Assembly (NCBI GenBank): GCA_945868805.1
Contig: CAMBMO010000002.1
Location: forward strand, 159,978-223,977
From: Singulisphaera sp. GP187
Lineage (GTDB): Bacteria > Planctomycetota > Phycisphaerae > Phycisphaerales > SM1A02
DNA length: 64,000 bases
Direction: 5' to 3'
Below the pieces are notes generated by a model that saw only the letters and a list, made by a program, of their open reading frames with translations, was not told where the DNA came from and searched no databases. The first letter of the stretch is position 1, and every line of letters starts with the position of its first letter. The position numbers and the translations under genes are program-made. Shown in pieces: positions 39,309-60,760 of this stretch.

Positions 39309-39818
39309 TTATCCCGACTTCGGCAGCAATCCGCCCAGAATCGCCCTGAAATTTTCACCGAAGACAAAGTTGTGCTCTGGCAAATCCAATCCTGCGCGAT
39401 TCTGATCGACATGACTGAAAATGATCTCGGTGCGACCAATGTTGATCCACCCTCCGCCACGATGATCAAATCTGCTGATCGTTCCCTTGGTCGATGCACC
39501 CATATCGTCCATACGTTCGATCGTCGCGTCGTAGCGAATTGACTGGCCAGGAAAAACATCGCTCTCGAAGATTGCCTCTGTGACCTTCGCCAAGATCACC
39601 TTCTCTTTGAACTGACGAACGCTTCCCACCAAGATCCCCGCCGTCTGTGCCATTCCTTCAAGCATCAGGCTTGCGGGCATCATCGGCTGAGCTGGACCAT
39701 CCGCCCCTTCGGCGAAATGTTGGTGCAGGTGATCCTCGGCAAGCGAGACATTCTTGATTGCCACAAGCCGAGCATTCGGTTCATGCAGCAGAATCGCGTC
39801 AATCCAAAGCCAGCGCAT
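39309..39818 (-). CDS. FabZ-like 3-hydroxyacyl-ACP dehydratase, copy A
   Basis: 169 residues, hot-dog fold. The catalytic His is in EDHLHQHFAEGADG and the Glu region in PASLMLEGMAQTAGIL, the FabZ/FabA catalytic pattern (HFPG...xxExxAQ). The segment PAQPMMPASLM replaces the usual PVMPGVL, and the loop between is longer than in FabZ. It would dehydrate a beta-hydroxyacyl chain carried on ACP; chain length unknown. It lies 15 bases after the ACP gene in a dehydratase-ACP-dehydratase set. Confidence 0.82.
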   Translation of the reverse strand: MRWLWIDAILLHEPNARLVAIKNVSLAEDHLHQHFAEGADGPAQPMMPASLMLEGMAQTAGILVGSVRQFKEKVILAKVTEAIFESDVFPGQSIRYDATIERMDDMGASTKGTISRFDHRGGGWINIGRTEIIFSHVDQNRAGLDLPEHNFVFGENFRAILGGLLPKSG

Positions 39819-39833
39819 GCATTACGCCACGCG

Positions 39834-40226
39834 TCAGGCGGGCGCTCCTGCTTTCAACTTGTTTGCGACGAAACTCACGAGGCTGTTCACCGTGAAGACT
39901 TCCGAAACCTTCTCCAACTTCGGATCCGCGGCGAACGCGCTGAAATCAACATGTGGCATCTTCTCTTTCAAGAGTGCAAGCCCAGCAGCATTCACGACGC
40001 CATCGTTGACATACTTCGGATCGTTGATGTTGTCCGGGAAGAGCTCACCTTGACCAATCTTGAAGCCAAACGCCTTCTCAATTCTGAAGACGATGTCGAG
40101 AAAGTCGATCGACTCTGCGTGCAAGTCGGTCGTCAACCGCGCGGTTGGGGTGACTTCCTCGTCGTCGACACCCAGCGCGTCGACCAGCACACCCTGAACC
40201 TTGTTGAAAATCTCGTCGTGACTCAT
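39834..40226 (-). CDS. Acyl carrier protein with C-terminal extension
   Basis: 130 residues from ATG 40226 (MSHDEIFNKVQG), preceded by a perfect AGGAGGT. The first 80 are an ACP fold: VLVDALGVDDEEVTPTARLT and LHAESIDFLDIVFRIEKAFG. The phosphopantetheine serine is in ESIDFLD (normally DSLD). A 50-residue C-terminal extension (MPHVDFSAFAADPKLEKVSE) is unlike housekeeping ACP, so it is a dedicated carrier for this cluster rather than the fatty-acid one. Confidence 0.88.
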   Translation of the reverse strand: MSHDEIFNKVQGVLVDALGVDDEEVTPTARLTTDLHAESIDFLDIVFRIEKAFGFKIGQGELFPDNINDPKYVNDGVVNAAGLALLKEKMPHVDFSAFAADPKLEKVSEVFTVNSLVSFVANKLKAGAPA

Positions 40227-40245
40227 GGACAAATTGAACCTCCTG

Positions 40246-40719
40246 TCAAAGTTGAAGCATCCGTACTGGTCGCATTGTAAAGCGTCCGCTGACAGCCGTA
40301 TCGGCGTTCGAGGCACTGCTTCCTGCAGAAGAATTCGCCGCGCATCGAATCACCGTCGCGCTCCCTTTGAAAACCACGCATCCGTCATCCGTCTCTTTGT
40401 CGATGGTCACTTCGCTTCGAAGCCCCTCTCCAGGCCGAACAAAGTTTCCGTATCGCAAGGCACGCACGCCGCCGAGCACCATTCGCTTCGGAACGCCACC
40501 CGCCACCGCTCGGTCTCTCGCCGCCAGAACCAACCGCGCAGATTGCACTAATGCCTCCAGCATGAAGACCCCCGGCAGGACATGGAACCCAGGAAAGTGA
40601 TCCTGCAAGTACTCCTCGCTGAGCGTCACGTTTTTGACGGTCACAGCTCGATTTGGCCCACATTCCAAGACTTGATCGACGAGGCAAAAGTGCATGAATC
40701 CGAAGGGTAATTGATTCAC
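40246..40719 (-). CDS. FabZ-like 3-hydroxyacyl-ACP dehydratase, copy B
   Basis: 157 residues, hot-dog fold. SEEYLQDHFPGFHVLPGVFM followed by LEALVQSARLVL holds the catalytic His and the Glu region with the canonical HFPG and LPGVFMLEALVQ spacing, closer to true FabZ than copy A. The C-terminus (SSASNADTAVSGRFTM) is variable. The divergent ftsK gene begins 45 bases away. First gene of the dehydratase B-ACP-dehydratase A unit. Confidence 0.85.
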   Translation of the reverse strand: MNQLPFGFMHFCLVDQVLECGPNRAVTVKNVTLSEEYLQDHFPGFHVLPGVFMLEALVQSARLVLAARDRAVAGGVPKRMVLGGVRALRYGNFVRPGEGLRSEVTIDKETDDGCVVFKGSATVIRCAANSSAGSSASNADTAVSGRFTMRPVRMLQL

Positions 40720-40764
40720 GGCGGTCTGTCCTGCCGATATTTGGCTATGGCAAGGAAGTCGCCT

Positions 40765-43371
40765 ATGGCTATCGCACGCCCGAGCAGCAGCTCGGGGGTT
40801 CTCCCTCCCGCATCGATGACAAGCAAGGTCATTTGGTTGGCCTGTTCGGCAATGTGGCTCTACGCCGTCGCGAGCATGCTGAGTTTCTCAAGTAGCGACT
40901 GGCCAAGCCACACGGTCGCGGTTCAACAGTATCCCCCCGAAAACTGGGGAGGGCGAGTCGGGTCAGTTCTTGCGTACGCCGTCTACGAAGGACTCGGATT
41001 CGGATCGTGGGTCGTCCTGCTTTGCGGCGGGTACGCACTGGCCGTGATCGCGACTGGTCGTGCGATTCCCCATCCAATTGTCCGAACAATAGGTGCGGTT
41101 CTTGCGATGCTCTCCGTATCGGCGCTCCATGCACTTTGGTTTCCACATATGGGACCGCTCGCGGGTGCGGACGCGGGATTGGTTCCGGGTTGGATGGCAG
41201 ACCAAATTTGGGGGCGATTCGGCCCGATTGGGGCAAATATTGTCGTCCTTTCGGGATGCCTCATCGGATTCATTGTCGCGGTCGACGAAGTTGTGATGGC
41301 TCTCCCGGGTGCGCTTGTGAAAGCGGTTCAGGCACTCGATCCAGTTTGGGGCTTTGATTATCGTTCTTGCTTCAAGGGATGCTTCGGTCGGGTCTTCGGA
41401 CATAGGGAAGCTCGTCTCCAACCAGCCGTCGTGGTTGGCGAGCTGCATGATGGGGCGGATGTTGAGGAAAAGGAAACATCGGAGAGTGCGCTAGATCGTC
41501 GCCGTCGTCTGGTGCGAGAGTCGCGCCAGGCTGCGGCGGCGGCTCGCCGTGGAGTCGTCGCCGAAGCGGATGAGGACGAGGAAGTCGGCGACGCATACTC
41601 GACCACCGAGGATTCCGCGAAGTCGCAATCCGAAGAAACAACCGAGAATGCAGACGAAACTGATGAAGAAATAGTGTTCGCTCGACCTGCACTCAGCCCG
41701 CAAGAATTGCGCGAGCGGATCGCGCGCATGCCCGTCAGGATGGCGGGCATCAACAAGATTCTCGCGCGCGACGAAGACATTCCTCGTGAAGTGGATTACA
41801 CGGGATACAAGTTTCCCACGCTTGACTTGCTCGAAGACCCCGAGGAGAACTTCTCTCAGCGCATGGAGAGTTTCGTACGCGAGCAAGCTGGAGTCCTGAC
41901 CGAAACGCTTCGCACCTATCAGTTGGACGGCGAAGTCGTCGGCATCGAGAGCGGACCGGTCGTCACCCTTTACTCAGTCGAACTCGCGCCAGGAACGCGC
42001 GTCGCTCGACTCGAGACGATTTCCAAGGACATCGCACGTGCCCTCAGCGCGCCAAACATCCGCATCATCCCGAACATGACCGGGAGGACTGCTGTCGGGA
42101 TTGAAGTGCCAAACCGCACCAAGGAAAAGGTTCGACTGCGCGAATTGATGTCGAGCGGCCATGCGGAGGGCATGCGCCTTCCCATGTTCCTCGGCAAAGA
42201 CAGTTCGGGCGAGCCACTCGTACTCGATCTGACCAAGATGCCTCACGTGCTGATCGCTGGAACTACCGGATCCGGAAAGTCCGTCTGCATGAACAGCATC
42301 ATCATGTCATGGATCTACACCAAGCGTCCCGACGAGCTGAAGTTGGTGCTCGTCGATCCAAAGATGGTCGAGATGAGTCAGTTCGCATGCATCCCACACT
42401 TGATGGCTCCGGTTGTCACCGATATGAATCAGGCGGCGGGGATCCTTGAGTGGACGGTCGGCAAGATGGAAGAGCGATACGAAATGTTCCGCGCGACCGA
42501 AGTGCGGGATATTGCTGCCTACAACGCTCTCGGCGAGGAGGAACTCTTCGCCCGACTCAAGCCAGAGGACGACGCCGCCAGGGCCAGAATCCCGAAGAAA
42601 CTGCCATATATGGTCTTCGTTATCGACGAATTGGCCGACCTCATGCTGACCAACAAAGAGGTCGAAACTCACATCGTCCGGATAGCCCAGAAGGCGCGGG
42701 CGGTCGGAATTCACTTGGTCCTCGCGACCCAAAGACCACAAGCCAATGTCGTCACAGGACTTATCAAGGCGAACATGCCATGCCGTATCGGCTTCAAAGT
42801 CGCAAGTGGGATGGACAGCCGAATCGTGCTCGACCAAAAGGGAGCAGAATTGCTCCTTGGTCAGGGCGACATGATGGTCCTGACCCCATCCGGTAGCGGT
42901 GAACTTCGGCGGTGCCAAGGCACTCTTGTGACCGACAACGAGACTCGAAAGGTCGTCACATTCCTCAAAGATGTCGCAGCTCCAAGCTTCGAGCGAAGTC
43001 TGCTCGCAGTAAAGAGTTCCGCGCAGTTGAACTCTGCTGCGAACGCGGGCGACGGAGGCGATATCGACCCAAACGAACGAGATCCGATGTTTGACAAAGC
43101 AGTCGACATTCTCATCGAGACTGGGCGCGGTTCGGTCAGCTTGCTTCAGCGACGGCTCGCAATCGGATACGGGCGTGCATCGAGACTTGTCGACCAGATG
43201 TCGATGGCAGGAATCCTCTCGGACCATAAGGGGTCGGTTGCACGCGAGGTTCTGATCACCGGCGAGGACTGGTCTCGCATGAAGGCGATGGAAGCGGGCG
43301 AGGATGATCCAGACGAACGTGGGGATGAACGGCGGGGCGACCTGACCGTCGAGCCAGTCACCGACGATTGA
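40765..43371 (+). CDS. ftsK: DNA translocase FtsK/SpoIIIE
   Basis: 868 residues from ATG 40765 (MAIARPSSSSG), chosen because AAGGAAG sits 7-13 bases upstream; ATG 40747 is the alternative. Four N-terminal transmembrane segments (VIWLACSAMWLYAVASMLSF, GSWVVLLCGGYALAVIATG, IGANIVVLSGCLIGFIVAVD) anchor the septal part. A Glu/Lys/Ser-rich linker follows, then the motor: Walker A LIAGTTGSGKSVCMNSII, Walker B YMVFVIDELADLMLTN, LVLATQRPQANVVTGLIKAN, FKVASGMDSRIVLDQKGAEL. The C-terminal gamma winged helix (GRGSVSLLQRRLAIGYGRAS) reads KOPS-type sites. It pumps DNA out of the division site. Confidence 0.93.
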   Translation: MAIARPSSSSGVLPPASMTSKVIWLACSAMWLYAVASMLSFSSSDWPSHTVAVQQYPPENWGGRVGSVLAYAVYEGLGFGSWVVLLCGGYALAVIATGRAIPHPIVRTIGAVLAMLSVSALHALWFPHMGPLAGADAGLVPGWMADQIWGRFGPIGANIVVLSGCLIGFIVAVDEVVMALPGALVKAVQALDPVWGFDYRSCFKGCFGRVFGHREARLQPAVVVGELHDGADVEEKETSESALDRRRRLVRESRQAAAAARRGVVAEADEDEEVGDAYSTTEDSAKSQSEETTENADETDEEIVFARPALSPQELRERIARMPVRMAGINKILARDEDIPREVDYTGYKFPTLDLLEDPEENFSQRMESFVREQAGVLTETLRTYQLDGEVVGIESGPVVTLYSVELAPGTRVARLETISKDIARALSAPNIRIIPNMTGRTAVGIEVPNRTKEKVRLRELMSSGHAEGMRLPMFLGKDSSGEPLVLDLTKMPHVLIAGTTGSGKSVCMNSIIMSWIYTKRPDELKLVLVDPKMVEMSQFACIPHLMAPVVTDMNQAAGILEWTVGKMEERYEMFRATEVRDIAAYNALGEEELFARLKPEDDAARARIPKKLPYMVFVIDELADLMLTNKEVETHIVRIAQKARAVGIHLVLATQRPQANVVTGLIKANMPCRIGFKVASGMDSRIVLDQKGAELLLGQGDMMVLTPSGSGELRRCQGTLVTDNETRKVVTFLKDVAAPSFERSLLAVKSSAQLNSAANAGDGGDIDPNERDPMFDKAVDILIETGRGSVSLLQRRLAIGYGRASRLVDQMSMAGILSDHKGSVAREVLITGEDWSRMKAMEAGEDDPDERGDERRGDLTVEPVTDD

Positions 43372-43422
43372 GATCGACGACCGAAAGCCAACTCTGCAAA
43401 TCGGGTTTTTGGTGATTGGAAC

Positions 43423-43450
43423 TTGTTATTTTTTGCCAATCGGGTGTAAT
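43423..43450 (+). promoter_or_regulatory. Sigma-70-like promoter candidate for the coiled-coil membrane protein
   Basis: TTGTTA, a 16-base spacer, then TGTAAT (4/6 and 5/6 matches to the -35 and -10 consensus), 120 bases upstream of the ATG at 43570, in an otherwise AT-enriched 198-base gap (run of T at 43429-43434). The region after ftsK shows no terminator. Confidence 0.3.
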
Positions 43451-43569
43451 GCCAGAGTCACAATTTGGTGTCAGCGCAGCTCGGTGCGATTGGCTTGAAA
43501 CGGATTTCTCGCAACCGCGGTTTGATTTCAGTGATGCTGGGCGCGCGACGACCAAGGAAGGCTGGCCAG

Positions 43570-46500
43570 ATGATCGCAAAACCCGAAGATATTCAGTCCT
43601 CTGCTTATGACCTTCGACGAGCCAATGGGTCGATCCTGCACGGGATCACTCCGAGTCAGGTTCGAGAGATGGCGCTCTCAAACGACCTGTATGACGATGA
43701 CATGATTTCTCGATCTGGTCAGGATCGATGGCGATCCGTTACAAAGCTCAGCGGTCTGTCGATTCGCGCGCGTCCGGTGATGAGCGAACCGACTATCGAA
43801 CCGATTCCGGAGGTCTTCCCAATCTCCCATCCGAATCTCGAACATGAGACTCGCCGTGCCGAGCAACTACAGACGGCTTGTGATCGACTCTTGATTGAAC
43901 GAGACGAATTGCTCGGTGCCATGGACGCCCTTCGTCGCGAATGCGAAGGAGCCACGCGATCAATCGACGGACTTCAAGCTCGTTGCGAACAACTCGAAAC
44001 GGAAGCACAGCAGATCCCGCAACTGCGATTGAACATTGGAGACCTTCAGAAACAAAGCGATGCGCTCGGACAGGATCTATTGCAGGCCGAAACCGCGCTC
44101 GAAACCCAGACCAATGCGCGAACACGGGCGCAGAATCTTGCGGAAGATCTTCGCGAGCAACTGGAAGCGGTCGGTTTGCGCGCTCGGCAAGCGGATACGG
44201 CCCATGAGTGTGAGGTCAATCTGGTGCGAGAGCAGGCTGCGACGATTGAGTCCGAACTCCGCAAGCGACCAGAACAGTCCGAAGTGGATGCGCTCGAGAA
44301 CGCGATGCGCGAGCGCGACATCGCGCAACTTCAATCTGCCGAGGCGCTCGCCCACACCCGCCAGCAGTATCGGCAAGAGCTTGAATCGGCTGAGCAGATT
44401 GCCCGAAATGCACGAGTCACCCACGATGTCGAAGCGTCACTTTTACGTAGCCAGGTCAAGAACCTGACCGAAGAAATCCGCGAGCGCCCCGACCCTTCCA
44501 TCGTTCAAGATCTCGAGGCTGCCACACTTGAACGCGACCGTGCGCAAGAGTCCGCGCAGATCGCAGGCGCCGAACGCGACGAGTTGGTAACAACTCTTGG
44601 ACAATCCCAAGATGCGCTTCGTGCAGGAGACGACCTTCGCAGAGCGCTTGAGAAGTCGCTGAACTCGATGAAGATAAATGTCGCCGAACTGTCCGACGAG
44701 CTTGCACGAGTTCGAACGGCTGAGAGCGAACTGCAATCCGCGTACTCGCTCGTGCTTGCCCGCGCGGATTCCGCGGAAGCATCTGCCACTCAAGAGCGAC
44801 TGGCTCAGGAAGAATTGAAGTCATTGAGTGCGCGATCACAAGCAGAGCGCGACTCGATTGCGAAGTTACGTGAAGTTGCGGTCTCGCAACGCGATGCCGC
44901 ACTCTCTGAGCGCGATTCGACCCGCCTCGCCGTTGGTGCGACTCAAACTGAATTGCTCAAAGTTCGACGGGAGTTTGACGCCCTGAAGAGCGACTTCGAC
45001 TCGTCATGCATCGCACTTTCGGAACAGACCGCGCGCGCTTCCGCACTCGAAGGATCGGTTGCTGCGATGCGCTCGCAAAGCGAAGCACTCGCGACTGATC
45101 TTGATTCGAGGATCGACGAGATCGCGCAACTCAATTCGCGTGCCGAAAGCACTGCAAAGCAGACGCGAGAGGATGCACGACGCCACGACGAGTTCTTGCA
45201 AAGGATCGGAGTCCTTGAATCGACCGCAATGGACGTGGAACACGAACGCGACTCAGCACGAGCCGATGCAACCACTTTGCAGGTCGAGCTTGCCTCCACG
45301 CGCGAATCCGCAACCGTCGAGTCGCAAAAACATGCCGCGACACTGCGGGAACTCGCCGAGGAACGATCTCGTGTCGTCGCCCGCGACGAGCTCATTTTCC
45401 GAGAGTCTCTGCGATGCGAGGAGCGCGAGACCGAGAGCCGACGACGCAGTGCCGATCTCGCCGCACTCCGCGCTGACTGCGAGACTGAGCGTCGCCGCGC
45501 GGATGACGCGACGATGCAGATCGCAACATCGCAACGAGACCTCTTTGAATCACGCAATGTCGCGACAGCGCAGGCGGTGCAGTTACAGGACTCCCAGCTC
45601 CAACTTGAAGCACTGGCCGCGCTCGAGCAATCCGCTCGGTCGTCTCTCGTCGCTGCGAGTCGTGAACGTGACGAGTTGTCCTCTGCACTCGCAACTGCGC
45701 ACGCTGCAATCGCTTCGCGCGAGCAACAGGTCTCGGCCGAGCGTGGGCTCCGCGATCAGGCGGAGGGAAGCTCTCGCCAATTGCTCGCGAGCTACGAAAA
45801 GCTTGCCGACGACACTGGGAGAAGGATCACCGACCTCGAAATCAAACTGTCCGATTCGAACCACACGATTCAAGCTGCCCGCGCGCGCGAGGAAGAGCTC
45901 GTCGGTTCGCTCTCCGAGGCGCACTCGCAGATGAAGTCAATCTCGCACAAGCTTGCGAGCGTTGAGGAACAACGTTCAGCGATGACCCGTGACCGCGACT
46001 CGCACGCGAAGCGTGCTTCGAACGAGGCAGCAGCACGGGCAGTCGCAGAAGAGAAGATCAGCGCAACAAACGAACGTGCACTCAAGGCTGAGCGCGACGC
46101 GCGATCGACCTATGAGCGCGCCGTTCAAGTCGCATCGGTGGCGCTGTGCGGAGCCAAACAGCGGCTCGAAGAAGACTATTCCAAGTCGCAGACCGAACTT
46201 CACGCGCTCGAGCACATCGTCGCCGAGGCGAGCAAGCAGGTCATCGCCACCGGCGGGACGCTTCCTGGAGTGCCGTTACTTCCGCGCGAAGCTGCGGCCC
46301 AAGCTGAAGAAATCGCGAGGTCGATCGCCGAAGCCAAGAGGTTTGCCGACGCGAAGGCACTCGCCGATGAGAAGGCTGCGGTGGATGCCGCGGCCGCGGC
46401 TACTTCCGCCGCTCTCGCGGCTCGCGTCGAGTCGCAGAGGAACGCGACACCACCAACGAGCTATCGCATGATCGATGGCGGGCTTGACGACACGACGATC

Positions 46501-48885
46501 TCACGACCACAGTCGCCCCGCGCCGGAGTGACGAACTCGCAGTCTCGTTCAGGTGGACAGCGCGAGCGCGTCTCGCAGCCTCGGGCGCAAAGTTCGAGCT
46601 CGGCTTCAGACGACGATTCCAGTTCTACGAACGACAATTCCTGCGCGCTTCTTGAGACGAAAAAGGCGGCGCCACAAGTCGATCCAACGCGACCTCCAGT
46701 TTCGGCGCGTCGAGCCGGTGCAGGACCAGTTCTTGACGATGCGTGGATCGATGATCACTGCGCATCTGATGCTCGCGAAGTGCCATCGAGCGCATTCAGG
46801 CTCGTGACTCTCACGGCTCTCGCGGTCACTTTCACGGCGACGATCTCAGCGCTCCCTGACTTCGCGCTTCTCGATTTTCGCGCGGCGTTCACTCGGATTG
46901 CGAGTTGGGTCGTGGCGATCCCCGCCCTCATCGCTCTGGTGCACCTCATCGCGCGACGATGTGAGCCAGTGCTCTCACGACGCATTCCAATTCTTGCGGC
47001 TGGAATGATCTCGATCGCTCCACTTTCCACGATGGCATTTGGATCATCGCCTTGGATTGGCGTAATGATTGTCGTGGCCGGCGCGTCTTTACCGTGGCTC
47101 ATGTGCTATGCCGCTTGGCCCGATCCATCCCAAGTGGGACTCGTCCGCCGCGAAGATCTCGTGGTCGGCACATTCGATCGTCGCGCGACCGTCGCTTCGA
47201 TCGTCTGTGCAGCTCTGGCAATCGTCGGAGTCGCCACGACATTCTTGCCCTGGGACGCGACAATGAAGGTCGCCATCGCAACACCGACGGGAGGATGCTT
47301 CGCAGTTCTGTTGGTGTCGCTCGTCAGCGTACTCCTGACACCTTCCATTCGATCGCATGCGTCCATCGCAGCTTGGGGTGCGCTTGCGGTCATCGTTGCA
47401 TTCCTCGCCGACACTTTTCGATCGCAGGGCATCAGCCAAGCGCTCTCGACGATTGAACCGTCGGTGTGGATCGCGCTCTTGGTCGCATGGTCGTCGGTCG
47501 CGGCGAGTTCGCTCGCTTCGGCGTGCGATGCGCGTCGCATCTCCGAGGCGCTTCAAGCGATCGCCGACGATGACGCTCCCGCACTCGTCGCGCACGAACG
47601 CATCCACGCGGCGTGCATCATGGGATTGACCGCGGTCCTTCCACTACTTCCGGCACTGGTGGCATTCCATCTCGTGCGGGAAAGGTCACGGCGCGCCGAG
47701 AGCCAATTGCGATCGCTCGCCAATCTCGAAATCTGGTTCGTGCTCGCACTCATTGCCGGAGGCGGCGCTGGAATCGTCTTTCCGTCAGTCATCGGAGCAT
47801 CGATCGTGATCGGACTTCTTGCGGGGCACGCCGCGATCTGCATCGCCGCAGCAATCACAGTCGGCGCGGACAGATTCGTCCGATTCCCGTCGCCAGCGGC
47901 GCTGCTTGCTCGCCCCGGAGGCGGGCTCGACCTCCCCGTGCCCCTTGTCACCATCCAGCGAACTGCGAAGCACTCGCCTCATCGACCAATTGTTCATCCG
48001 TGCGGAACGACGATTTGGGGTCTTGCCACGATCGTGCTTGGATGCCTTGCGGTCGCGAGCGCGACGAAGAGCCCCGCACTCTCGCTCGCTCTTGGACCGA
48101 TTCTCGGGCTAGCGATCTGGACTCCCTCCTTGATCGCATCGCGTTGTCGACATCAGGACACGATCGTGCTCTGTGCCCTTGCGACACTCTTGCCCGTGAT
48201 CTTCGCGATCGCTGGTTACGCGCTTGATGTCACAGCGAAGCCCGAAGGAATCCCGATGCTGGTCGCCATCGGTGGCGCCGCGTCGGGAATATGGGCGCTC
48301 CTTGTCGGTTGGGCATTCAAGGGGATGAACCAACTCTCATCGCTGACTCAATCAGCCTCGTTTGAGGTTGACGAATTCGGCGAGACGATCGCTCCCACTG
48401 AACGACCCATCGCATGTCGACGACGAGAAAACCTGATGCGGCGAGTCGCAATCGGTTCTTCCGGATTCACCGCAGCATCTGCGCTCGTGCTTGCGCTGCC
48501 GAGTGCGGGTTCGATCGCACCCTCACCATCGCTCGTCTGTGGCACGGTTGCGTTGACGCTCGCGACGTCGGTCTGGATGATGGCGATCCTTGGCGATCGG
48601 ACTCGAGTCGTCCGCAGCGCAGGATTGTTCACGGCGATGCTTCTGGCGAGCTCGTTCTTTGCCGTACTTCCGATGTTTTTCCGCGCCACTGAGATTGGTG
48701 CGCTCGGCGCGGTTGGAGCGCTTCCATTCTGCGCGGTTGCATCCATCGCCGCATTGCTGACGGCGGGGATTCTCAACACGATGAGGTCACCGAGTCGCAG
48801 CGGTCGGTCGCGAACGCCAGTGAAGCTCGCAGCATCGGTCAAGCGCTCCGATTCCGCACCCAAACGAAAGCATGTCGCAATATGA
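43570..48885 (+). CDS. Giant GYF2-like / coiled-coil / polytopic membrane protein
   Basis: 1771 residues from ATG 43570 (MIAKPEDIQSS; AAGGAAGG precedes), not the 43465 ORF-track start. Residues 10-65 (YDLRRANGSILHGITPSQVR and DRWRSVTKLSGL) match the GYF_2/DUF4339 pattern. From about 100 to 950 the chain is one long Glu/Arg/Ala-rich helix with heptad-like spacing (LQTACDRLLIERDELLGAMD, AEERSRVVARDELIFRESLR). A Ser/Asp-rich linker (about 970-1070) follows, then 17-19 hydrophobic segments from 1076 (FRLVTLTALAVTFTATISAL) to the end (GALGAVGALPFCAVASIAAL). I do not recognise the family. It follows ftsK and overlaps the deaminase by 4 bases. Confidence 0.75.
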   Translation: MIAKPEDIQSSAYDLRRANGSILHGITPSQVREMALSNDLYDDDMISRSGQDRWRSVTKLSGLSIRARPVMSEPTIEPIPEVFPISHPNLEHETRRAEQLQTACDRLLIERDELLGAMDALRRECEGATRSIDGLQARCEQLETEAQQIPQLRLNIGDLQKQSDALGQDLLQAETALETQTNARTRAQNLAEDLREQLEAVGLRARQADTAHECEVNLVREQAATIESELRKRPEQSEVDALENAMRERDIAQLQSAEALAHTRQQYRQELESAEQIARNARVTHDVEASLLRSQVKNLTEEIRERPDPSIVQDLEAATLERDRAQESAQIAGAERDELVTTLGQSQDALRAGDDLRRALEKSLNSMKINVAELSDELARVRTAESELQSAYSLVLARADSAEASATQERLAQEELKSLSARSQAERDSIAKLREVAVSQRDAALSERDSTRLAVGATQTELLKVRREFDALKSDFDSSCIALSEQTARASALEGSVAAMRSQSEALATDLDSRIDEIAQLNSRAESTAKQTREDARRHDEFLQRIGVLESTAMDVEHERDSARADATTLQVELASTRESATVESQKHAATLRELAEERSRVVARDELIFRESLRCEERETESRRRSADLAALRADCETERRRADDATMQIATSQRDLFESRNVATAQAVQLQDSQLQLEALAALEQSARSSLVAASRERDELSSALATAHAAIASREQQVSAERGLRDQAEGSSRQLLASYEKLADDTGRRITDLEIKLSDSNHTIQAARAREEELVGSLSEAHSQMKSISHKLASVEEQRSAMTRDRDSHAKRASNEAAARAVAEEKISATNERALKAERDARSTYERAVQVASVALCGAKQRLEEDYSKSQTELHALEHIVAEASKQVIATGGTLPGVPLLPREAAAQAEEIARSIAEAKRFADAKALADEKAAVDAAAAATSAALAARVESQRNATPPTSYRMIDGGLDDTTISRPQSPRAGVTNSQSRSGGQRERVSQPRAQSSSSASDDDSSSTNDNSCALLETKKAAPQVDPTRPPVSARRAGAGPVLDDAWIDDHCASDAREVPSSAFRLVTLTALAVTFTATISALPDFALLDFRAAFTRIASWVVAIPALIALVHLIARRCEPVLSRRIPILAAGMISIAPLSTMAFGSSPWIGVMIVVAGASLPWLMCYAAWPDPSQVGLVRREDLVVGTFDRRATVASIVCAALAIVGVATTFLPWDATMKVAIATPTGGCFAVLLVSLVSVLLTPSIRSHASIAAWGALAVIVAFLADTFRSQGISQALSTIEPSVWIALLVAWSSVAASSLASACDARRISEALQAIADDDAPALVAHERIHAACIMGLTAVLPLLPALVAFHLVRERSRRAESQLRSLANLEIWFVLALIAGGGAGIVFPSVIGASIVIGLLAGHAAICIAAAITVGADRFVRFPSPAALLARPGGGLDLPVPLVTIQRTAKHSPHRPIVHPCGTTIWGLATIVLGCLAVASATKSPALSLALGPILGLAIWTPSLIASRCRHQDTIVLCALATLLPVIFAIAGYALDVTAKPEGIPMLVAIGGAASGIWALLVGWAFKGMNQLSSLTQSASFEVDEFGETIAPTERPIACRRRENLMRRVAIGSSGFTAASALVLALPSAGSIAPSPSLVCGTVALTLATSVWMMAILGDRTRVVRSAGLFTAMLLASSFFAVLPMFFRATEIGALGAVGALPFCAVASIAALLTAGILNTMRSPSRSGRSRTPVKLAASVKRSDSAPKRKHVAI

Positions 48886-49343
48886 CCCACCAACTCAGCG
48901 GCGAAGTGATTGAGCGAGGTCTCGTCGCAGCGATCGAGCAAGCCGAGAAAGGATGGCGCGAGGGAGGCATCCCGATCGGATCGTCCTTGCTCGATTCCGA
49001 TGGCAACATCGTCGCGCGAGGTCACAATCAGCGCGTGCAGTCTGGAGATCCCACTGCGCACGCCGAGGTCGACTGTGTTCGCAAAGCTGGGCGACGACGC
49101 GACTGGAATCGACTCACGCTCGTCTCGACACTCTCCCCCTGCCCGATGTGTTCCGGAACCGCCATCCTCTTCAAGATTCCACGAGTCATCATTGGCGAGA
49201 ACAAAACATTTCTCGGTGCTGAAGATTGGATGCGCGCGTCTGGGATATTGCTGACAGTTCTCGATGATCCGCGTTGCATCGCGCTCATGGAGCGCATGAA
49301 GCGCGAGAAGCCCGATCTCTGGGCGGAAGACATCGGGGAGTAG
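48882..49343 (+). CDS. Nucleoside/cytosine deaminase, yeast Fcy1-like
   Basis: 153 residues. Zinc deaminase motifs: catalytic His-Ala-Glu in DPTAHAEVDCVRKAG and SPCPMCSGTAIL (PCxxC). Additional hallmarks resemble fungal cytosine deaminase Fcy1: GGIPIGSSLLDSDGN, GHNQRVQSGD and the ending DDPRCIALMERMKREKP with EDIGE. The likely reaction is cytosine to uracil (pyrimidine salvage), though guanine deaminase or other bases cannot be excluded. The start overlaps the giant protein by 4 bases (ATGA), so the two are co-translated. It converges with the epimerase gene. Confidence 0.85.
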   Translation: MTHQLSGEVIERGLVAAIEQAEKGWREGGIPIGSSLLDSDGNIVARGHNQRVQSGDPTAHAEVDCVRKAGRRRDWNRLTLVSTLSPCPMCSGTAILFKIPRVIIGENKTFLGAEDWMRASGILLTVLDDPRCIALMERMKREKPDLWAEDIGE

Positions 49344-56233: not shown

Positions 56234-59200
56234 CTACTTGCCGAAAAGTTTGCCGATGTCTTTGAGCGTTCCGCCGATGTTCTTGATCCCGTCCTGAATC
56301 TTCTTGCCATCGAGGCTTGACGCGTCGAAGACCAATTTTACCTTGCTCGCAAGTGGCACGGACTTCCCCTGAACTTCGCCAAGCGGTCCAGAGAGCGTGA
56401 TATCGACTTGCATAAGGTCCCCTGGATCGACCGGCAATTTCGAGATCGCATCGCTGAGTTGCTGCATTGTCGATGAGAGCCCAGATGACGCCCCGCCAAT
56501 TGTGCGACCGAGTGACGAAAGCGGATATCGACAGGTAATGGCAATGGCGTAGGGCGGAGTCTTGCAAAGGTCGATGTCGCCCGAGAGTTTCAACTTCTGC
56601 TGCCATTGATCGCCGAACTTCCCTGCCTCCACGCGGAAGTCCGAATACCGCAAAATCCCCTTTCGAACGGTGATGATAAGCGGTTCGATACGCGCTGGAA
56701 TTGTGTCGGACTTCGCGCTTTGCGCGAGCGCGAGAACCCCCAGCACTTGATTGCTCCGTACGACTTCAACATCTCCGACATCGACGCGTGCGTCGAGATC
56801 AAGTGTGCAGAGATTTCCGTCAAGTGGGTACGACGCGCGCGACACATGCAACTGGATCGGTGGCGCGCTACGGATGTCCGCCAAAATCGGATTGAGCGGT
56901 TCCAACAGTCGACGCTGCAAGACCTTGTTGATGGTGAATGTGACTGAGAGCGGATTGGTACTCGAGATGAGGACCACCCCATTTCCGATCTGCACATTCG
57001 CAGCGGCAATCGACAGGTACTGCGACTTGACGGTCGCATCAACGATGGTCGTTGGCAATCCGCTTGCGTCGGTCGCGACTTTCGCATCAACGGTTGCGTC
57101 GAGTTCTGGGCCAAGTGCCTCGACCAATTGCCCGCCTTGACCGCATGCGGCATCAATGATCGCAGTTGCAATCTTGCTCGCTCGCAACTGCGCCGTCCAA
57201 GCGCCAGCGGATGGATCGAAAGCTCCCGACGGATCGGCAAGTCCGCTCCCGCTGGCTTGCGCCGTGAACGAACCCGACTTGACGCCACTGCCTGACATCG
57301 AAATGGTGAGCGAATCAGCCAATCGTGGTGAGCGCGCGGTGAAGTTCGTCGCCGCGAGCCCGACAATCGGTTTGCCCTTCGGCTCGACCTCGATCGGTGC
57401 GAGATCGACCGAAACATCGAACGAGGCGTTCGTCAATCCATTCGCAGGGAGATTGAGCGACTTGAGATGAATGCCTGCATCGATCGAACCGAGCCGTGTC
57501 ACTGCTGAGCTCGCGTCCTTGTTCCCACTCGCCCAATCCGCAAGTGCGAGTGCGAGTGCGCCAGGAAGCTTGACTTGCAATTCGCTTGCTTGCAGTGTGA
57601 GTGGAACTTTGGTCGCGCCGAAGAACGAGCGCAAGTCGCCACTCGCAGCCACAGCGAGAGAGACCGGCCCAGGCGCAGAATCACCTGCTTGAAATGTGCC
57701 ATCGATTCCGACAATGAGTTCTCGATCGAAGGCCACCGATTTGACAGTAAATGCTGTCTTTCCGAGAGCTAATTTCGGTTTGCCCGTTGGTTCGACCGCG
57801 ATCGCGGCAAGATCGAGCCGAAGGTCTGCCGATCCCGTCGTCGTCGCACCGATCGGGAGCGCGAGCGAGTTGATCGTGAATGCCGCGTTGATATCGCCTA
57901 GATTGGTGATCGACTTCGAGAGCGAATCTGATCCTCTGCTCCAACTTGAAATCGCAATCGCGAGCGCGCCCGGAACCTTCACTGCGAGCGTGCTGGACTT
58001 GAGCGAAAGTGGATAGTCCCCCGCGCCAAGAAGCGACCGCAGGTCACCATTGGCATCGAGTACGACCGACAAGGTTCCAGAGCCAGCCGCGCCCACTGTG
58101 AATTCCCCGCTCAATGCAGCTTGCGCGCGTTCTGCCAAACGTGGGCTCTTGACGCTGAGCGCAACCTTGCCGAATGAAAGAGCGGCGCGATTCGGTGGCT
58201 CGATTGAACCTGGTTCCAAGTCGAGATTCATGACGACTGATGCATCGTCCGCCTTCCCCGTCCATTTGAGACTCTCGACAACAAGCGAACCGCCGATTGT
58301 TCGCCCACCGGTGCGCCCAATCAGCTCCTTCCAATCAACGCCCGAGCGAAGCCCAAGCGCCTGCTCGACGATTTCAGTCGGCACATTGAATGTGGCCGTC
58401 GACTTCGCAACGTCGATGTGACCCGTCGCTGGATCTAGGCTTCCCGAAGTTTTTAGCGTGAGCCGTGGCAACGCGACATCGGCGGTGAAGGAATTGGACG
58501 AGCCGCTTCGATTGAATGATCCCTTGATCGAACCCGGACCGACGAGTGTTGCGCTTCCTTCGCCGATATCGAGCATCGTCGCGAGCGTGTCGCCACTCGC
58601 GATTGCGAGGTCAATCGTCGACTGAAAGTTCGCACTCCCGAGATCTGGCAAGCGAATGGTCGTTACGATCGATGCTGCCTCGCGAGAGCCATTCAGCGCG
58701 ACCGTCAGAATCTTCGACTGCAACTGCGCGTCCAAGCCACCGATCGAGCCGTCCGAGTTCGTTGTGATCGTTGCGCTCGCGACAACTCCTCGCAGACTTC
58801 CTCCGCGAACCAATCCTGGAGCCATCGCGAGATCGATGCGATCCGCCGAGATCTTTGCATTGATCGTCGCGGGAAGGACTCGCCCAGCCGAGTTCGCAGT
58901 CCAGCTTCCTTCGATAGCTCCGACTTGCAGAGCGATTCGCGCTGGTGAATCGAGTGCGACCGCGGGACCGGCAAAGTGCGCGACCAGCGACGGTGCGACA
59001 GTCAGCGCGCAGTCAATCGGCTTCGTCGAAAAACCACTCTTCGTCCAAGCGATATCCGTCTTCACTTCCGTCGCGCTGAGTACGAGCTTGAGTGTTGCCG
59101 TACCGGCCTCCACCGTTCCATCGTTGCTCACGTTCGCGGCAATGGTTGTGACCGCGCACTCCGCCAGGAGATTGCGCGTTTGCGCATCAAGCCATGGAAG

Positions 59201-60760
59201 CGTCGCGAGCACGACAGGCGCGATCTGCACCGATCCCCTCGCGCGCGCTGAATCGATGGCGAGCCCGCCTGCATCGACAAGTCCGCTGATGACCTGATCG
59301 ACCACCAGAGCCGATCCATCAATAGAAGACTGCACCCGAATGTTGACGGCCGACATCGGATCACTCGTCTGAACCGCAATCGTGGTCGCGCCAATTGCGA
59401 GCGAGACCATCGACGAAACCGAAAGCGACATCGGTGCGACCGAAATGTTCGCGTTCACGCGCGCATCCTTCCAGGGCAGCACTGCGGCACCTCCAAACAA
59501 GACCGGAAGAGTGATTGCGTTTCCTTCGATCGTGACTGCGACTGGCGCGGAAATCTTGAGGGATGGTGGCACGAGCGCGGGATCGACTTGCGCACTGATC
59601 GAGAGTCGATCAATCGTCGCCAGATCGCCGCTCTCCGACAGCGCACCTGACGCATTGAACGCAAACTTCTGCGCGAAGATTTCCGCACCGCCCTTGCGAC
59701 CGTCGAGTGTGATCGTCGCGTTCAGATTCGGACCGAGATCACGCGCGGCATCGAGCGGCGCCGGCAAGTACGGCGCAAGCGCGGACGTTGGAAGGTTGAC
59801 GACAGAGATTGACCCCGCGACGGATCGCTTCGCGGCAGCAAGCGGATTCGCCGCGTTCAAATCAATCGTTGCCTGCGCAGATTCGCCAGTTGGAAGTTGG
59901 ATGACCGTATGCGCCATAACCCGCACTGCATCAGCGATCTTCGTCGAAGAGACCTTGAGAGAGATCGATTCCACTTCAAGGGGAATTCCCACCGCTGGAA
60001 TCGCGAGCGCACTCGCCCGAAAGTCGAGATCGACAGACGCCACTGCCACATCAACGGAACCATCGGCGGCGAATAACCCGTCGATGCGTCCATCGAGAGC
60101 GAGCGATCCAACTTTCTCCCCGACTTTCGTTCCAGATGCAAACGAAGCGCGAATAGCCAAATTCTCGACCGCGACCTTCCCCTTGAAGTCTGTAACTTCG
60201 ATGCGCGGGCCACTCTGCGAACTCGTCGCGACGAACTGAAGCGATGTGATCTCGACGACAAGGCCGCGCAATGTCTCTGCGAGCGACCCACTTGTCGACT
60301 GTGGCTTCGCGACAACCGGTGAAGTTGCGGACGCGTCGACAGGAACTTGAAAGAGTTCCGTCAGCGAGAAAGTGCCGTCGGGTCGATAGACCGTCGCGAT
60401 CGATCCCAAAATCGTGAGGTGTGGAGCTTCACTCCCACGTGCGAGCCCAATCAGGCCGTTGTTGGCGGTGACATCGACCCTGATCGACGCGCCGTCCTTC
60501 CCCTTGACTGCGAACCCGCGAATGACCTGTGGTCCAGACCAGGAGAGCGAGAGATCCGAAATCGAAACCTCGCCTTGCACCATAGGTTGGACGGCGCCCG
60601 TAATGAGACTCCGACCGATCGAACCGGAGAGGATCGTCGGCAAGAACCCAACGATGACGGCGATCGCGACAATTGAAACGGCGACGCCGATCAATCCACG
60701 ACGAAGCCACTTTCGACGAGACGGCGTAGCCGACGATTCCGGATTTCCATTCGGTTCCAT
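56234..60760 (-). CDS. AsmA/TamB-like giant periplasmic-spanning protein with internal repeats
   Basis: 1508 residues. Basic N-terminus, one membrane helix (RGLIGVAVSIVAIAVIVGFL, residues 22-41), then a beta-rich chain with AsmA-like opening VQGEVSISDLSLSWSGPQVI and an end domain of DUF3971-like look. Residues from about 860 hold repeats of about 155 residues: DANGDLRSLLGAGDYPLSLK recurs as ASGDLRSFFGATKVPLTLQA; VKVPGALAIAISSW recurs as VKLPGALALALADW; IAVEPTGKPKLALG recurs as IEVEPKGKPIVGLA. The family is that of inner-membrane-anchored proteins bridging to the outer membrane. Start ATG 60760. Confidence 0.72.
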   Translation of the reverse strand: MEPNGNPESSATPSRRKWLRRGLIGVAVSIVAIAVIVGFLPTILSGSIGRSLITGAVQPMVQGEVSISDLSLSWSGPQVIRGFAVKGKDGASIRVDVTANNGLIGLARGSEAPHLTILGSIATVYRPDGTFSLTELFQVPVDASATSPVVAKPQSTSGSLAETLRGLVVEITSLQFVATSSQSGPRIEVTDFKGKVAVENLAIRASFASGTKVGEKVGSLALDGRIDGLFAADGSVDVAVASVDLDFRASALAIPAVGIPLEVESISLKVSSTKIADAVRVMAHTVIQLPTGESAQATIDLNAANPLAAAKRSVAGSISVVNLPTSALAPYLPAPLDAARDLGPNLNATITLDGRKGGAEIFAQKFAFNASGALSESGDLATIDRLSISAQVDPALVPPSLKISAPVAVTIEGNAITLPVLFGGAAVLPWKDARVNANISVAPMSLSVSSMVSLAIGATTIAVQTSDPMSAVNIRVQSSIDGSALVVDQVISGLVDAGGLAIDSARARGSVQIAPVVLATLPWLDAQTRNLLAECAVTTIAANVSNDGTVEAGTATLKLVLSATEVKTDIAWTKSGFSTKPIDCALTVAPSLVAHFAGPAVALDSPARIALQVGAIEGSWTANSAGRVLPATINAKISADRIDLAMAPGLVRGGSLRGVVASATITTNSDGSIGGLDAQLQSKILTVALNGSREAASIVTTIRLPDLGSANFQSTIDLAIASGDTLATMLDIGEGSATLVGPGSIKGSFNRSGSSNSFTADVALPRLTLKTSGSLDPATGHIDVAKSTATFNVPTEIVEQALGLRSGVDWKELIGRTGGRTIGGSLVVESLKWTGKADDASVVMNLDLEPGSIEPPNRAALSFGKVALSVKSPRLAERAQAALSGEFTVGAAGSGTLSVVLDANGDLRSLLGAGDYPLSLKSSTLAVKVPGALAIAISSWSRGSDSLSKSITNLGDINAAFTINSLALPIGATTTGSADLRLDLAAIAVEPTGKPKLALGKTAFTVKSVAFDRELIVGIDGTFQAGDSAPGPVSLAVAASGDLRSFFGATKVPLTLQASELQVKLPGALALALADWASGNKDASSAVTRLGSIDAGIHLKSLNLPANGLTNASFDVSVDLAPIEVEPKGKPIVGLAATNFTARSPRLADSLTISMSGSGVKSGSFTAQASGSGLADPSGAFDPSAGAWTAQLRASKIATAIIDAACGQGGQLVEALGPELDATVDAKVATDASGLPTTIVDATVKSQYLSIAAANVQIGNGVVLISSTNPLSVTFTINKVLQRRLLEPLNPILADIRSAPPIQLHVSRASYPLDGNLCTLDLDARVDVGDVEVVRSNQVLGVLALAQSAKSDTIPARIEPLIITVRKGILRYSDFRVEAGKFGDQWQQKLKLSGDIDLCKTPPYAIAITCRYPLSSLGRTIGGASSGLSSTMQQLSDAISKLPVDPGDLMQVDITLSGPLGEVQGKSVPLASKVKLVFDASSLDGKKIQDGIKNIGGTLKDIGKLFGK

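Follow-up and report, generated by a model that had tools for sequence, protein, structure and literature searches.

Long cytoplasmic coiled coils that are fixed to a membrane and carry a binding head are represented by the eukaryotic golgins and the bacterial polar scaffolds TipN and PodJ, which are held by one or two transmembrane (TM) helices. The giant protein described here is similar to golgins with a C-terminal anchor, TipN, and PodJ in its presumed working mode, but it differs from them in possessing eighteen TM helices, and the likeness is one of description only. To our knowledge, no bacterial cytoplasmic rod of such reach with an 18-helix anchor is among the established protein layouts. 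Closer counterparts of its individual parts are found among planctomycete GYF_2 (DUF4339) membrane proteins, especially the GYF_2-DUF4870 proteins, in which an N-terminal GYF-type domain is likewise followed by a membrane domain with DUF4870. In contrast to these, the giant protein separates the two by a coiled coil and linker of about 1,000 residues and surrounds the DUF4870 unit with many additional TM helices. Finally, in HOTT/Tic20 proteins a re-entrant helix leads through a charged loop to a pair of helices (PMC11628618). Part of the membrane domain shares these elements with the HOTT/DUF4870 and Tic20 (MamF-like) proteins, including a Q.R...NF pattern in the charged loop and a terminal R[YF]P, whereas it sits within a far larger membrane domain and scores below or near the curated cut-off.

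The gene lies in a 64,000-nucleotide stretch (hereafter, the window) from the 2.5 Mb, 96% complete genome of Singulisphaera sp. GP187, in which it is present as a single copy. It occupies positions 43570–48885 (+) as one open reading frame (ORF) of 1,771 amino acids, running from the ATG at 43570 to the TGA at 48885 with no internal stop. The frame is intact in 17 relatives of the same genus, with 39–62% identity in the membrane part, indicating purifying selection. From the N-terminus, the protein consists of a GYF-fold head, a heptad coiled coil, a disordered linker, and a polytopic membrane domain. A preliminary description of the locus had reported a 1,771-residue ORF with a GYF2-like head, a coiled coil of ~850 residues, and 17–19 membrane segments. 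This outline agrees with the uninterrupted frame kept in relatives, the GYF_2 matches in 13 of 13 heads together with a predicted GYF fold, a coiled coil of about 800 residues, and 18 hydropathy peaks, or 19 helices including one hairpin when model and hydropathy are combined. To it we add a constant rod length, an invariant motif in the linker, and a probable HOTT/DUF4870 unit within the membrane domain.

The head comprises residues 1–72 (43570–43785, +). The Pfam GYF_2 model matched all 13 complete heads (best 6.3e-6), although the window copy, matching over residues 27–63, reached 19.1 bits versus the cut-off of 25.8. A reverse search with the head profile recovered GYF_2-type ORFs in other genera, and a PDB sequence search with the same profile gave no match. 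The AF2 model of the head had a pLDDT of 79, and in a Foldseek search its best 13 PDB matches were all GYF domains or TIC chains (probability 0.82–1.00, TM about 0.58, best E 0.011). They comprised GIGYF1/2, Smy2, an Arabidopsis GYF, the GYF domain of Myxococcus GltJ, and three chloroplast TOC-TIC or TIC chains; TIC56 is listed as a GYF gene (PMC13132833). By this model, the head is predicted to be a GYF fold. The residues that bind GYF ligands are partly kept, with the GP[FY] turn reading G[LM]TP in the giant-protein heads. A separate 251-aa ORF in the same genome (L090, G000:C1:25165-25695) contains GYF_2 and DUF4870, both above their Pfam cut-offs, and resembles a miniature of the head and HOTT arrangement.

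The head is followed by an A/P/V-rich linker and a length-variable N-terminal coiled coil with proline hinges (residues 73–350; 43786–44619, +), and then by a proline-free, length-constant coiled coil between DLRRAL and LPRE anchors (residues 355–906; 44632–46287, +). The hydrophobic period of the rod was 3.50–3.51, with a power of 2.56 versus 0.92 for the 95% shuffle maximum. Coiled-coil propensity extended over residues 89–894, about 800 residues, by the COILS matrix, with approximate borders. Between residues 90 and 895, prolines occur solely at positions 150, 234, 307, and 309. By arithmetic at 0.1485 nm per residue, a fully helical rod would measure up to about 120 nm, and its proline-free portion, residues 310–894, 87 nm. 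No myosin-like charge periodicity emerged, since the strongest charge peak, at 3.15, barely exceeded the shuffle limit and a 28-residue period was absent. SMC proteins have a similar coiled-coil composition, which accounts for a weak NCBIfam match (33 bits, cut-off 567); we rejected membership in that family, from which the giant protein differs by its membrane domain and by the absence of Walker A and the ABC signature.

The length of the membrane-proximal rod is strikingly constant. The anchors DLRRAL (355) and LPRE (902) are separated by 547 residues in 12 of 14 species, nine of which have both anchors by pattern and three by gapless alignment. The remaining two, the sister species L032 and L033, each have a single insertion in between, 133 and 126 residues long and equal to 19 and 18 heptads. 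This in-register insertion follows rod residue ~405 and resembles a tandem copy of the TRLA..ATQTEL..RREFD segment. An apparently gap-rich rod in the first indel count was traced to this single insertion common to the two sisters. As the 547-residue spacing is changed among 14 species solely by insertions of whole heptads, both register and length are under selection; selection against indels has been reported for the coiled coils of the synaptonemal complex (PMC8598163). The alignment contains 58 distinct gap segments along the N-terminal rod and 37 along the linker, and length changes in the variable N-terminal rod showed no heptad-multiple rule. In the second genus described below, one sub-distance between anchors is 177 versus 153, a difference of 24 that is not a multiple of the heptad, so the constancy of rod length is a genus-level property. 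Conserved blocks within the rod reach 93% identity over 30 residues between distant species, and the stretches near residues 600–630 and 690–750 exceed most of the membrane domain in conservation, which suggests that they bind partners and do not serve simply as a spacer.

The disordered linker (residues 909–1058; 46294–46743, +) contains an invariant linear motif, RxGG(Q/A)RERVSQ followed by the serine-acidic run SDDDSS (residues 993–1018; 46546–46623, +), which is kept in all species while the flanking sequence drifts. The motif is a candidate docking or phosphorylation site, judged from its sequence. Together with the conserved rod blocks, it implies binding partners.

The membrane domain (residues 1074–1735; 46789–48774, +) showed 18 hydropathy peaks in one scan, and the combination of model and hydropathy gave 19 helices, one of them a hairpin. 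The AF2 model, built from 17 sequences, had a pTM of 0.73. Positive-inside counts placed loops 2, 4, 6, 8, 9, 11, 13, 15, and 17 and the C-terminal tail inside. The parity of the inside loops switches at helix 9, which the AF2 model breaks into a hairpin, indicating 18 TM helices and one re-entrant hairpin. On the charge bias, both termini are cytoplasmic, including the basic C-terminal tail, which with the stop codon occupies 48775–48885 (+). The loops on the cytoplasmic side are more conserved than the outer loops (0.71 vs 0.55, p 5e-7), and the latter are all at most 16 residues long. A long, strongly conserved loop, assigned to the cytoplasm by charge bias, spans residues 1429–1478 (47854–48003, +) and reads DRFVRFPSP..GGLDLP.PLVTVQRTAE.SPHRPIVHPCGTT. 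As the strongly conserved parts all face the cytoplasm, the protein appears to work there. A few charged residues are conserved within helices (E327 and H360 in membrane-domain numbering). RnfA-like NCBIfam matches fell far below the cut-off, and a profile self-comparison was negative for an internal duplication of the membrane domain.

The sole recurring Pfam match of the membrane part was DUF4870, at residues 1346–1441. Scores were 19.6–24.7 bits for the window copy and 26.9 for one homologue, with a curated cut-off of 25. A local profile of 26 DUF4870 proteins taken from related genomes matched the same place in 18 of 18 homologues, 11 of which scored at least 12.7 bits, and scored about zero over the rest of the domain; among 558 controls, 99% were below 8.1 and the maximum was 15.1. 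In an hhalign comparison of DUF4870 with the membrane profile, the charged loop and the final [YF]P motif were paired at a probability of 20%. The membrane profile did not align with the DUF4870 region of the 251-aa GYF_2-DUF4870 protein, whose first residues carried entry errors that should be of no consequence. In domain numbering, the AF2 model breaks a helix at 279–296/300–309, with positively charged loops on both sides, and continues with TM helices at 314–343 and 351–373. This independently derived topology of hairpin, charged loop, and two TM helices matches the HOTT/Tic20 architecture and supports the assignment. Residues 1338–1441 (47581–47892, +), which include an RFP motif, are therefore likely, although not proven, to form a divergent HOTT/DUF4870 unit of the Tic20 superfamily. 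A transglutaminase-type membrane protein from another family of the order (L146:395-3133, G379) resembles the loop and helix pair of HOTT over 88 residues; as the match is confined to these positions, we judged the protein to be unrelated and the resemblance probably convergent.

Of the 19 genomes in the genus, 18 carry the giant gene. With the membrane part as query, a search of 60 relatives matched 17 of the 18 other genus members (E 2e-83 to 4e-275) and no other genera, and a 14-member profile run over 181 genomes of the family returned the same set. The lone genus member without the gene, G002 (82% complete), has no ftsK either, which marks the absence as an assembly gap. The rod profile detected one further homologue in another genus of the family (G204:C262, E 5.7e-10), an N-terminal fragment of 666 residues ended by the contig edge inside the rod. 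Its head matches, it carries the motifs RDATRLAIGATQTEL and ARDELIFRESLR, and it directly follows ftsK. When profiles were run against 400 genomes from the order and 392 from the phylum, and a pattern against 84,980 species, no further convincing homologue emerged; these searches score just the best first-look candidates, and very distant relatives may be missed. Searches of plasmids and PHROGs gave no matches. The relatives to which the pattern scan gave names are planctomycetes that are uncultured or known from metagenome assemblies, and several come from lakes such as Baikal. The protein is thus genus-specific, strongly conserved, and of unusual design, and constitutes a variant of the GYF-plus-HOTT membrane proteins.

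Upstream of the giant gene lies ftsK (40711–43371, +), whose product has the 4TM, alpha, motor, and gamma domains, and the two genes are separated by 198 nt (43372–43569; 162–282 nt in relatives). A simple consensus scan of this gap found neither a terminator nor a sigma-70 promoter. Downstream, a cytosine deaminase-like gene (48882–49343, +) begins within the stop of the giant gene through a 4-nt ATGA overlap that is kept in 13 of 16 relatives. Its product contains the zinc region of cytidine/deoxycytidylate deaminases, and its C-terminal end resembles that of yeast Fcy1. The succession after ftsK and the coupling to the deaminase, both proposed in the preliminary description, were confirmed in this form. 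In the genus, fabZ-acp-fabZ, transcribed divergently from ftsK, is followed by ftsK, the giant gene, the deaminase gene, and then a convergent epimerase and atp genes. The window carries this acyl carrier protein, flanked by two FabZ-like dehydratases, at 39309–40719, and the three genes stay together, divergent from ftsK, across the family. The giant gene follows ftsK in all 14 genomes in which both ends are visible, the second genus included. Adjacency in relatives was thus upheld, but as a functional clue it is weakened, as other genera without the giant gene retain the same blocks together, with unrelated genes (e.g., one for a secreted protein of ~300–350 residues) or nothing in its place. 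Since the neighbourhood persists without the gene, its adjacency to ftsK is largely inherited and requires no functional reason. In the ancestor of the two genera, the gene either originated at this site between ftsK and the deaminase gene or was placed there by insertion. Position, if meaningful, points to the deaminase, given the 162–282 nt to ftsK versus the 4-nt overlap.

A putative peptide-binding head, a fixed-length rod, and an elaborate anchor are best read as a membrane-anchored cytoplasmic tether or scaffold, to which we assign a probability of roughly 0.42. Two or more chains would form a parallel rod of up to about 90–120 nm, with the GYF heads at its far tip recognising short peptides, probably rich in proline, on their partners. 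Additional binding sites may lie in the invariant linker motif and in the membrane-proximal rod segment of fixed length, and the membrane domain, HOTT unit included, would keep the rod at a defined site or partner of the inner membrane. Cytoplasmic cargo could in this way be held at a set distance from the membrane, as golgin-type tethers or polar coiled-coil scaffolds do. The incomplete retention of GYF ligand residues in the head and the non-heptad difference of 24 residues in the second genus count against this reading. A pure anchor, however, needs no 18 helices with conserved cytoplasmic loops, and the membrane domain probably does more than anchor. As its AF2 model rests on 17 close sequences, a transporter-like fold may also be hidden there. 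A transporter, channel, or sensor, for which the very long coiled coil and the GYF domain serve as regulatory input, would account for the 18–19 TM helices in a fairly confident bundle, the conserved cytoplasmic loops, and the few conserved charged helix residues. We nevertheless consider it unlikely, because the membrane domain matched no PDB fold (best E 1.1), no PDB sequence in a profile search, and no transporter model of Pfam or NCBIfam, and it lacks the internal repeat typical of transporters. A known transporter or channel family with the rod as an unrelated insertion, raised in the preliminary description as the contrary case, was accordingly not found; the small HOTT unit was the only assignable part. 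Nearly the same degree of doubt applies to a platform for membrane-protein handling, in which the HOTT/Tic20-like unit sorts or inserts membrane proteins and the GYF-tipped rod gathers substrates or ribosome-bound clients. The constant place of the HOTT unit, the 26.9-bit homologue, the agreement with HOTT/Tic20 topology, and the importance of MamF-like HOTT proteins in magnetosome membrane assembly (PMC11628618) favour such a platform, as do the matches of the head model to TIC chains, the GYF protein TIC56, and the small GYF_2-DUF4870 protein encoded in the same genome. The window copy, however, gives a weak HOTT signal (19.6 bits, below the cut-off), as does the profile–profile comparison; the small protein gave no alignment, and the other TM helices are unexplained by HOTT. 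A more specific version, in which the combination of GYF head, fixed-length rod, and Tic20-superfamily unit in one polypeptide makes a machine particular to this lineage, catching proteins at a distance of tens of nanometres and passing them to the membrane, seems very improbable. If true, it would be a prokaryotic parallel to the pairing of a GYF protein with Tic20 in the chloroplast TIC.

The preliminary description had placed a membrane-tethered long rod in a bacterium lacking FtsZ and connected it to division or chromosome tethering. The former stands, as none of 61 genomes had a member of the FtsZ/tubulin family, which was detected in 13 of 14 controls. A division or chromosome-tethering factor that works with FtsK would be compatible with this absence and with the unbroken adjacency to ftsK in both genera. 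Moreover, FtsK is probably important in such bacteria, as it seems to be indispensable in Planctopirus (PMC6952346), and in Chlamydia, which lacks FtsZ, it initiates assembly of the divisome (PMC11975371). We regard such a role as improbable, since the whole neighbourhood is conserved without the gene in other genera, the gene lies 162–282 nt from ftsK yet is coupled to the deaminase gene, and all other FtsZ-less genera searched lack it. Of the 61 genomes, 42 belong to other genera, which are also without the giant protein; it is therefore no general substitute for FtsZ. With the gene confined to one genus and a single genome of a second, while all relatives searched are FtsZ-less, the proposed link to division or chromosome tethering is unsupported. 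Beyond position, nothing joins the giant protein and FtsK, and planctomycete division without FtsZ is not answered by it. The overlap conserved in 13 of 16 relatives might instead suggest that the protein places or regulates the cytosine deaminase at the membrane, but other genera have the deaminase and no giant gene, and we consider this the least probable of the readings. Unrelated neighbouring genes often overlap by 4 nt, which further argues against it. The tether or scaffold remains our preferred reading. The gene is fixed across a genus of small-genome planctomycetes and most of its rod length is exact to the residue, which makes the protein a testable candidate for a bacterial molecular ruler, and the barely characterised HOTT family gains an embedded member.

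Two further observations concern other ORFs. Most relatives encode a second FtsK-family ORF of about 1,290–1,416 aa (G002:C10:20628-21356, G033:C6, G034:C84, G035:C2, and others), whose length and score suggest an EccC/EssC-like ATPase of type VII secretion. In the window, a 1,508-aa ORF with no Pfam match occupies 56237–60760 (−), and comparably long ORFs lie near ftsK in other genera (L041, L046).
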